This document shows positions 46,392 through 48,833 of a stretch of DNA of 64,000 nucleotides, one piece after another. The DNA is from Alphaproteobacteria bacterium. Its GTDB lineage: Bacteria; Pseudomonadota; Alphaproteobacteria; Rhizobiales; JAJFHR01. The translations under genes and the position numbers were made by a program. Below the pieces are notes generated by a model. It saw only the letters and a list, made by a program, of their open reading frames with translations. It did no database searches and was not told where the DNA came from. The stretch spans positions 1-64,000 of the forward strand of contig JAJRTY010000053.1 in the NCBI GenBank assembly GCA_024278055.1, read 5' to 3'. The number at the start of each line of letters is the position of its first letter. Within the stretch, counting starts at the first letter, position 1.

Positions 46392-46712
46392 TCAGGCAAT
46401 GAAAAAACCGGCGATAATCAATCCGCTCACAATGGTAGAGCCAACCACCGATGCAATCAAAGTGTTGCCACTCACGCCTGTGTCGCGGCGGCTTAATATA
46501 GCACCCAGCACCACGAACAGGAGTACAGCAAGCAACCCATGGGTTACCCAGTGATGGCCGGTGAGAGACACCATTAGCTGCAGTACGCTCTCGTTGCTTT
46601 CCTTGAGAATAACAAGGAGGGCGCTTAATATGCTGGTGATAGCATAGGAAATTCCATATCCGGTTACTTTTGCGCTGGCAATATCAGTCATATCAGTTTG
46701 ATGTGTCGTCAT
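46392..46712 (-). CDS. Small membrane protein of FNR-boxed operon (third gene)
   Basis: A 106-residue protein with about three membrane helices (residues 18-36, 58-74 and 84-105), a soluble loop SLTGHHWVTHG with three His, and a short polar start (MTTHQTDMTDIASAKVTG). I do not recognise the family. It is the last of three minus-strand membrane genes, 12 bases after the second. The His cluster in the loop could bind metal or haem, but this is only a guess. Confidence 0.7.
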   Translation of the reverse strand: MTTHQTDMTDIASAKVTGYGISYAITSILSALLVILKESNESVLQLMVSLTGHHWVTHGLLAVLLFVVLGAILSRRDTGVSGNTLIASVVGSTIVSGLIIAGFFIA

Positions 46713-46724
46713 AATCTTTACTCC

Positions 46725-47189
46725 TTAAATCAGTTTGGCGAGCAGCGCGACTTTAACACCCATGCCGATTATTGCGCCTGCCCCTTCCATTGCCAGGCCC
46801 ATCAAAACCACCAGTGCGGATGTCCACAGAACCAGTTTTCGTGTGACTTTTTTCCTGACAACATCACCGTAAGCGGCGACTGGCAGGAATGTACCCAGCA
46901 GCAACAGCGTCAGGAAAAGATGTTCTTTGGTTTCCATGACGAAACCATGGGCGAATGGCCAGGGGCCGGCTTTTATCAGGGCTTTGTCGCCACCATAATA
47001 GATGACGTACCAGTAACCGCCAACAATATAGGCTAGCCAGAGCAGAACGGCTGCCAGCACACTGACCTGGCGAAGGCGGGAAATATTTCCATCGTTTGCG
47101 TTTAAAGCTTCAACGAACACCCAGACTGCTGCAATCATGGCAAGAACACCGAATGTGGGATGGAGCATTAAAATCATTTCTTTAGACAT
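46725..47189 (-). CDS. Membrane protein of FNR-boxed operon (second gene)
   Basis: A 154-residue protein with four membrane helices. His residues sit at helix ends (MLHPTFGVLAMIAA at the start; PWPFAHGFVMETKEHLFLTLLL in the middle), a pattern as in small haem-binding or quinone-linked membrane proteins. YIVGGYWYVIYYGGDKA is a conspicuous aromatic loop. No family recognised. The start overlaps the first gene by eight bases, so translation is coupled. Confidence 0.7.
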   Translation of the reverse strand: MSKEMILMLHPTFGVLAMIAAVWVFVEALNANDGNISRLRQVSVLAAVLLWLAYIVGGYWYVIYYGGDKALIKAGPWPFAHGFVMETKEHLFLTLLLLGTFLPVAAYGDVVRKKVTRKLVLWTSALVVLMGLAMEGAGAIIGMGVKVALLAKLI

Positions 47190-47709
47190 GTTTTATCTCC
47201 TTTCTGTTTTTCCCGTCAGCGTGTGAAGTGCTGTCCAGGAATTTGAATACCAACGCTGCAGCGGCGCCAAACAATACCTTGGAAATCAGACTGGTGGTGT
47301 AGGGAACCAGAGTGACGAAAGCCGGATTTAGTGCTGGTAAAATGATGAAAAAGTTCAAAGTCCAGACGCCAACGAGCAATCCAACCACGACAACAGGTTC
47401 AACTGCTGGGGGCAGAGTGGGCGGCAGGATAGAACGCACAAGTACGAAAATTGCGATGCCAAGCACAATCGCAAGTCCCAGATGTATGGCAATGCCAAGC
47501 GGCACAGTTGCACCTGATGTTATCAATTGCGGAAAAACCGTTTGGGTAACACCGCGCGCTACCGCAGAGGCCTCGCCGCCGGAAAGGTTTGCGTAGATGG
47601 CAATCCATAAGATTTCCGCGGCACCACCGGCCAGGCCTGCTATGGCACCTGTTGACCAGAATTTTGAAACATCGGGTAGGCTTGATTTGTTGGGTTTAGA
47701 AAATAGCAT
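47182..47709 (-). CDS. Membrane protein of FNR-boxed operon (first gene)
   Basis: From the ATG at 47709 (AGAGGTG nine bases before it) the product has 175 residues with four membrane helices; the frame also extends to 47754. The first helix region is GAIAGLAGGAAEILWIAIYA; later come GIAIHLGLAIVLGIAIFVLV and VVVGLLVGVWTLNFFIILP. The C-terminal tail is charged (HADGKNRKEIKHV). No family recognised. A perfect FNR/FixK-type box lies 103 bases upstream at a class II spacing from a -10 hexamer, so low oxygen likely turns on the three-gene operon. Confidence 0.72.
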   Translation of the reverse strand: MLFSKPNKSSLPDVSKFWSTGAIAGLAGGAAEILWIAIYANLSGGEASAVARGVTQTVFPQLITSGATVPLGIAIHLGLAIVLGIAIFVLVRSILPPTLPPAVEPVVVVGLLVGVWTLNFFIILPALNPAFVTLVPYTTSLISKVLFGAAAALVFKFLDSTSHADGKNRKEIKHV

Positions 47710-47783
47710 TTCATTAATCACCTCTCGATTTTGCGCTTGCAAAGCCGTTGGCAATACCAGCGGAGGATACCCCCACAGGTTTT

Positions 47784-47825
47784 TCTATATCGCGGTAATC
47801 TCCGGGTCTTATTGATTCAGATCAA
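47784..47825 (-). promoter_or_regulatory. Perfect FNR/FixK box and -10 of the membrane operon
   Basis: TTGATTCAGATCAA (47812-47825) matches the TTGAT-N4-ATCAA consensus fully. On the minus strand TATAGA (47789-47784) lies so that, with transcription start at about 47777, the box centre is at -41.5, the classic class II activator place. No good -35 is present, as expected for such promoters. Confidence 0.8.
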
Positions 47826-47864: not shown

Positions 47865-48833
47865 TTAGCGCCGGGCGGATACTCTCAAGCCCGGAGCCGG
47901 GCGTTCCTGCAGCACTTCGCGGCGGAAGGAAAACAGCGAGGCCGGCCTGCCGCCGGTGGTGGTCGACATGGTGCCGGTGGCTTCGACCAGACCGCCCTTT
48001 TCGACCAGGCGGCGGAAATTCTGCTTGTGCAGATGACGACCGGAAATGGCTTCGACGCTGCGCTGAAGTTCAAATAAGGTGAATTCCGGCGGCATTAGTT
48101 CGAAGATTACCGGGCGGTATTTAAGTTTGCCGCGCAATCTCCCCATGGCGGTGGCCAGAATGCGGCGATGATCATGGTTCATCTGCTGGCCCATGTGCCG
48201 GGCAAGCGTGGCTTTGGCCTGATGACGGCCCTTGCGTGCGGCTTCGGCTACAAGCCCGGCCTCATAGAGAAGTTCATAACGCTCCAGGGTTTTTTCTTCA
48301 TCCCAGGCAAGGCCGCTTAAACCAAAGCACAGGTTAATGCGCTCGTGCGCGCGTTGTTGTGTGTTCGGGTTTTGTGATTTGTCGGCCCAGTCCTCCAGTG
48401 CGGGAACAATAATGTCGTCGATGATCGGCGGCTTGTTTCTGCGCCAGTCTTCCCACGGGAAAAAATCATACCAGTTGCACCAGCGCCCCTGTGAGGTTTG
48501 TTGCTCATCGGTCTGGCGGCGCGTCAAGGCAAGGTAACCAACCGACACATGGGCAACGCCGGGCTGATCGGGCAAAGAGTGACGGCCCTGGTCACCAAAA
48601 GTGTAAAGCTGTTCGACATAGCCGAGGCTCAGTTTTGTTTGCTCACGTACCCAGGCGCGTAAACCGCGCTCTAAAGTCAGGTGGTTTTCAGGCTCGAACG
48701 GTCCATAAGGCAGGCTGCGGTCTGAGGCGTCAACAGGTCTCACCACAAAGATTGCGGCTTCATCCACATCGACTGTGACGATAGCCGCATTGAGGCTGAT
48801 GACGATATTGCTGCCGGGGTGGAGTTCGGTCAA
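47865..48833 (-). CDS. NrtR-like regulator (Nudix domain plus winged helix)
   Basis: The 322-residue protein has an N-terminal Nudix-like fold (IVISLNAAIVTVDVDEAAIFVV, then PENHLTLERGLRAWVREQT in place of the full Nudix box, so hydrolase activity is probably lost). The C-terminal part is a winged helix (FELMPPEFTLFELQRSVEAI, HLHKQNFRRLVEKGGLVE). This is the NrtR architecture, which senses ADP-ribose and controls NAD metabolism genes. It ends just before the FNR promoter region. The phosphatase gene follows after three bases. Confidence 0.8.
   Translation of the reverse strand: MTELHPGSNIVISLNAAIVTVDVDEAAIFVVRPVDASDRSLPYGPFEPENHLTLERGLRAWVREQTKLSLGYVEQLYTFGDQGRHSLPDQPGVAHVSVGYLALTRRQTDEQQTSQGRWCNWYDFFPWEDWRRNKPPIIDDIIVPALEDWADKSQNPNTQQRAHERINLCFGLSGLAWDEEKTLERYELLYEAGLVAEAARKGRHQAKATLARHMGQQMNHDHRRILATAMGRLRGKLKYRPVIFELMPPEFTLFELQRSVEAISGRHLHKQNFRRLVEKGGLVEATGTMSTTTGGRPASLFSFRREVLQERPAPGLRVSARR

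Follow-up and report, generated by a model that had tools for sequence, protein, structure and literature searches.

A rare pair of small membrane proteins behind a putative FNR promoter, with a possible role in low-oxygen redox metabolism

What might three small membrane proteins contribute to an uncultured alphaproteobacterium that seems to make them when oxygen is scarce? The question is raised by an operon (genes G1, G2 and G3; Table 1) in the window, that is, the whole 64,000-nucleotide stretch of DNA analysed here. An earlier note, made from the letters of this DNA, had described three reading frames of 175, 154 and 106 residues coupled by overlap or short gaps, with about four, four and three helices. 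This layout was confirmed: the start of G2 runs 8 nt into the end of G1, G2 and G3 are spaced by 12 nt, hydropathy yields the same numbers of transmembrane (TM) segments, and the AlphaFold2 models of G2 and G3 agree with them. Compared with four relatives, all three genes are under purifying selection, with dN/dS (w) between 0.06 and 0.25 (G1, 0.13–0.25; G2, 0.06–0.09; G3, 0.11–0.21), and the constraint is strongest on G2.

Table 1. Features of the operon, in positions of the window
Feature	Position	Strand	Description
G1	47182..47709	(-)	175 aa, 4 TM, optional partner
G2	46725..47189	(-)	154 aa, 4-helix membrane protein, core
G3	46392..46712	(-)	106 aa, 3 TM, core
5′ leader	47710..47811	(-)	conserved, possible hairpins (e.g. 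TTTGC-AAGC-GCAAA), Shine-Dalgarno GAGAGGTGA
FNR/ANR-type box TTGATCTGAATCAA	47812..47825	(-)	exact palindrome, TATAGA -10-like hexamer 22 bases downstream

None of the three proteins scored above the cut-off in Pfam, NCBIfam or PADLOC, none matched a PDB sequence, and nothing on the G2–G3 family was found in the literature. The profile search called for in the earlier note thus upheld its view that they belong to no known family: they lie outside the described families of the searched libraries, but the way they are regulated and the sort of task they probably perform are familiar. Several candidates were considered and rejected. Like YagU/DUF1440 (PF07274), G1 has four TM segments, the first of them rich in glycine and the second containing a His, but the profile comparison gave only 1–3%, against 98.1% for a control within DUF1440. 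HemJ (UPF0093, PF03653) is, like G2, a small protein with four TM segments and a conserved His; however, G2 did not match PF03653, reached 0.3% in the hhalign profile comparison and does not carry the HemJ signature AGLxYLPR. As a side observation, the 97%-complete host genome has no match to PF03653 itself, and sampled relatives of its order and class have HemJ. G3 shows local similarity to the YdjM inner membrane family (PF04307) around TGHHWVTHGLL in 4 of 16 members (best E 0.0025), but the protein of the window scored 16.2 bits against a cut-off of 29 and covered only 30 of the 176 profile positions. Its similarity to NADH dehydrogenase subunit J (NCBIfam E 4e-4, 20 bits vs 157; two of the 16 members) was a match of TM composition. 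A defence system was rejected, as PADLOC gave no match.

Homologues of G2 and G3 were aligned from 16 distinct loci in Hyphomicrobiales, Pseudomonas, Vibrio and Verrucomicrobia, among them a distant pair that sits amid vanadium-nitrogenase genes, and G3 directly follows G2 in every one of them. One of the pairs is 36% (G2) and 32% (G3) identical to that of the window. G1 was present in six of the 16 loci, exclusively of the Hyphomicrobiales type, and a sample of 240 genomes of the class yielded no further one. Co-occurrence across genomes, the check that the earlier note had wanted for its three-gene module, therefore bears out G2 and G3 as a unit and not G1, which is not obligate. Counts of genomes with G2 homologues, which include the query genomes, were low throughout: 3 of 398 in the Pseudomonadota, 3 of 385 in the class (one of them a marginal short match), 3 of 195 genomes from the phylum to which the Verrucomicrobia match belongs, 1 of 148 from the Pseudomonas family and 2 of 150 from the Vibrio family, that is, roughly 1% of the sampled genomes carry the pair. 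By these sequence comparisons, G2–G3 is a rare, patchy core pair, to which G1 is an optional partner. Copies of high identity occur scattered in different phyla, which suggests that the pair has moved horizontally. Cargo of phages or plasmids was rejected, as G2 occurs in no phage or plasmid record; the only plasmid trace of the pair is a decayed copy in Cupriavidus sp. P-10 (L095:5758-6243), a broken G3 beside an IS element and without G2, as would be expected if G3 is useless alone.

As the mark of FNR control we took the palindrome TTGAT-N4-ATCAA, spaced from a -10 hexamer as in class II promoters. Upstream of G1 there is an exact site with a conserved -10-like hexamer at the correct spacing, and the arrangement is retained in relatives: four other G1–G2–G3 loci have the box at nearly equal distance from G1, exact in L009 (from the host's own genus) and L011 and with one mismatch in L010 and L012. 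A TATA(G/T)A hexamer about 22 bases past the box, a distance that we take to be typical of FNR promoters of class II, is conserved in L009 and L010. The 3.57-Mb host genome holds 17 exact palindromes, against none of the reversed control pattern. Other copies adjoin ccoN of the cbb3 oxidase, a metal P-type ATPase gene with katG, cydB (bd oxidase) with a universal stress protein (Usp) gene, and genes for a hemN-type radical-SAM protein, a Crp-family regulator, Hsp20 and hemerythrin, a set that is the usual micro-oxic regulon. The FNR-type box proposed in the earlier note thus stands at the level of sequence, and the data support placing the operon under putative FNR control, as a member of this regulon. 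No box was found within 300 bp of the pair in L014–L018, L040, L045 and L046, among which L018 has a diverged G1.

The presence of Hsp20, Usp and katG among the regulon mates also accommodates an explanation without any catalytic site, in which G2–G3 would be a membrane stress pair that low oxygen induces along with Hsp20 and universal stress proteins and that confers tolerance to acid, NO or envelope stress. The pair in L018, which adjoins genes for a phosphoketolase and a beta-CASP RNase, fits this as well. However, invariant His, Glu and Lys residues in or near the membrane exceed the needs of a structural role, and the very low w of G2 also speaks against such a pair, so that we regard it as improbable.

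Between the box and the start codon of G1, the leader of the window is 81% identical to that of L010, whereas the identity is 44% at the fourfold-degenerate sites of the three genes and 40% in the 100 nt above the box. Constraint on this stretch thus extends past the promoter. It can form short hairpins, one of which adjoins the Shine-Dalgarno sequence. Folding exceeded that of shuffled sequences only modestly (z-scores -2.1, -1.1 and -0.9), almost no covariation could be counted in just three sequences, and searches in Rfam and in viral contigs gave no match. A known riboswitch was rejected on the Rfam result and the z-scores; the leader is possibly structured or protein-binding. It was not recognisable in L011 and L012.

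In the alignment of the 16 members, H10, W23, R38, Y61, Y65, H81, E86, K88, E89, H90, R117 and G138 of G2 are invariant, and E135 is kept in nearly all of them. In G3, K37, H54, W55 and H58 are invariant and H53 is nearly so, forming the motif GHHWxxH. The earlier note had pointed to His residues in both proteins, and those of the window (H10, H81 and H90 in G2; H53, H54 and H58 in G3) are, with the near-exception of H53, among these invariant positions. According to the positive-inside rule, the Arg/Lys residues at positions 38–40 and 112–118 of G2 and 75–76 of G3 place the conserved His residues, and with them the invariant Glu and Lys of G2 and Lys of G3, on the predicted periplasmic side. 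Cys is absent from all three proteins of the window and none is conserved in the family, which makes thiol or Fe-S chemistry unlikely.

The residue pattern, the obligate pairing, the regulon and some of the genomic contexts described below lead us to a reading as a low-oxygen membrane redox pair with a periplasmic-side haem, metal or quinone site, which we prefer tentatively and at somewhat less than an even chance. In it, G2 and G3 would be the two obligate subunits of a so far undescribed redox module of the inner membrane, which FNR would switch on when oxygen is low; in Hyphomicrobiales, G1 would assist them as an accessory subunit or in assembly. The invariant His, Glu and Lys residues of G2 (at the start of TM1, in the periplasmic half of TM3 and in TM4) and the helix start of G3 at GHHWxxH would come together in a single site within the periplasmic half of the membrane. 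This site could hold a cofactor (b-type haem or a metal) or a quinone, and through it the pair may relay electrons or protons from the quinone pool to a partner or back when O2 runs low. Several points count against this proposal: the loci named above have no FNR box near the pair, G2 and G3 are not linked by sequence to any family of redox or haem proteins, and the conservation of His is also compatible with ion transport or with metal binding that involves no redox chemistry.

The single-chain AlphaFold2 models are confident, with four long helices in G2 (pLDDT 92.8) and three long helices plus a short one in G3 (pLDDT 91.6). In Foldseek, the top membrane-protein matches of G2 in the PDB came almost without exception from subunit III of bo3, aa3 and actinobacterial oxidases, the four-helix membrane core of COX3 (PF00510; CyoC, CtaE, NorE) superposing on G2 with TMq up to 0.67, an rmsd of about 3.6–3.8 and prob 1.00. 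G2 could accordingly be a remote structural counterpart of subunit III of heme-copper oxidases (CyoC, NorE) and G3, with three TM segments and the size of CyoD, a small accessory (CyoD, NorF), the two assembling with an existing terminal oxidase or NO reductase and tuning it at low oxygen; that oxidases are under FNR co-regulation agrees with this. However, the best E value was a non-significant 0.18, and the designed soluble four-helix bundle KABLE came nearly as close (TMq 0.63), revealing a high helical-bundle background. By sequence, COX3 was ruled out for G2: none of the 16 members matched PF00510 at E 10, and hhalign gave 1.6%, compared to 99.9% for a COX3/NorE control. The G3 model found no credible structural match in the PDB, and neither an oxidase subunit I gene nor any other oxidase gene adjoins G2–G3 in the neighbourhoods read. 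Any resemblance of G2 to subunit III would be weak and confined to the fold, and we consider a role beside an oxidase or NO reductase unlikely.

The neighbouring genes vary by locus. In Pseudomonas (L014), narH and moaA are followed by genes for an NqrF-like FAD/2Fe-2S reductase (Fer2, FAD and NAD domains) and a MenA/UbiA-type prenyltransferase and then by G2 and G3, the last four consecutive on one strand (L014:5566-8785), with a cNMP-binding regulator after them on the opposite strand. In an alphaproteobacterium (L040:1064-6472), vnfD, vnfG and vnfK (NCBIfam VNFD, vnfG and vnfK above cut-off) and a nifX-like gene directly precede the distant pair, and in Vibrio (L013) cytochrome b561 and an SCO4226-like gene lie near the Vibrio pair. 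Apart from these and from L018, the neighbourhoods were uninformative. That G2 and G3 always occur together, and sometimes beside genes of nitrate respiration or vanadium nitrogenase, speaks for an undescribed low-oxygen redox complex in the membrane, and the conserved His, Glu and Lys together with such neighbours render redox work plausible. L015, L016 and L048 have no redox neighbours, and this, like the variation from one locus to the next, counts against the redox reading.

The same contexts can be read differently. As a channel, carrier or sensor, G2–G3 might handle an ion or a small metabolite of anaerobic growth (proton, metal, nitrite or NO) by means of a polar His/Glu/Lys site, and would then not be a redox enzyme. 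Small size, the absence of Cys and invariant charged residues near one membrane face would suit it, as would the metallo-enzyme neighbours (nar/moaA, vnf) and the SCO4226-like nickel-responsive gene upstream in Vibrio. No transporter family was similar at a credible score, however, and the oxidoreductase and quinone-type genes among the neighbours argue against it; we hold this explanation to be rather unlikely.

Further genes were observed near the pair. The two Verrucomicrobia loci (L017:8829-9611 and L045:4920-5651) have similar predicted outer-membrane proteins beside G2–G3 in differing arrangements, the latter just passing PF13557. In the window, the operon is preceded by a gene for an NrtR-like NAD regulator (47865-48833, minus strand), and quinolinate synthase nadA is found near the pair in L010 (4385-5470) and L017 (6869-7885); a tie to NAD synthesis was too inconsistent for an argument.

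The alphaproteobacterial low-oxygen regulon is well charted, yet this strictly co-inherited pair with its invariant polar residues has no family entry. It is conceivable, if rather doubtful, that with G2–G3 a new class of small membrane redox complexes comes into view, independent of Cys, induced at low oxygen, spread horizontally between nitrate respirers and diazotrophs and equipped in some Hyphomicrobiales with a conserved regulatory leader. That the pair turns up repeatedly next to genes of nitrate reductase and vanadium nitrogenase suggests that it has a general role in the redox metabolism of anaerobic growth, which is testable in culturable hosts of the pair such as Vibrio proteolyticus and Pseudomonas sp. 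MMS21 TM103.
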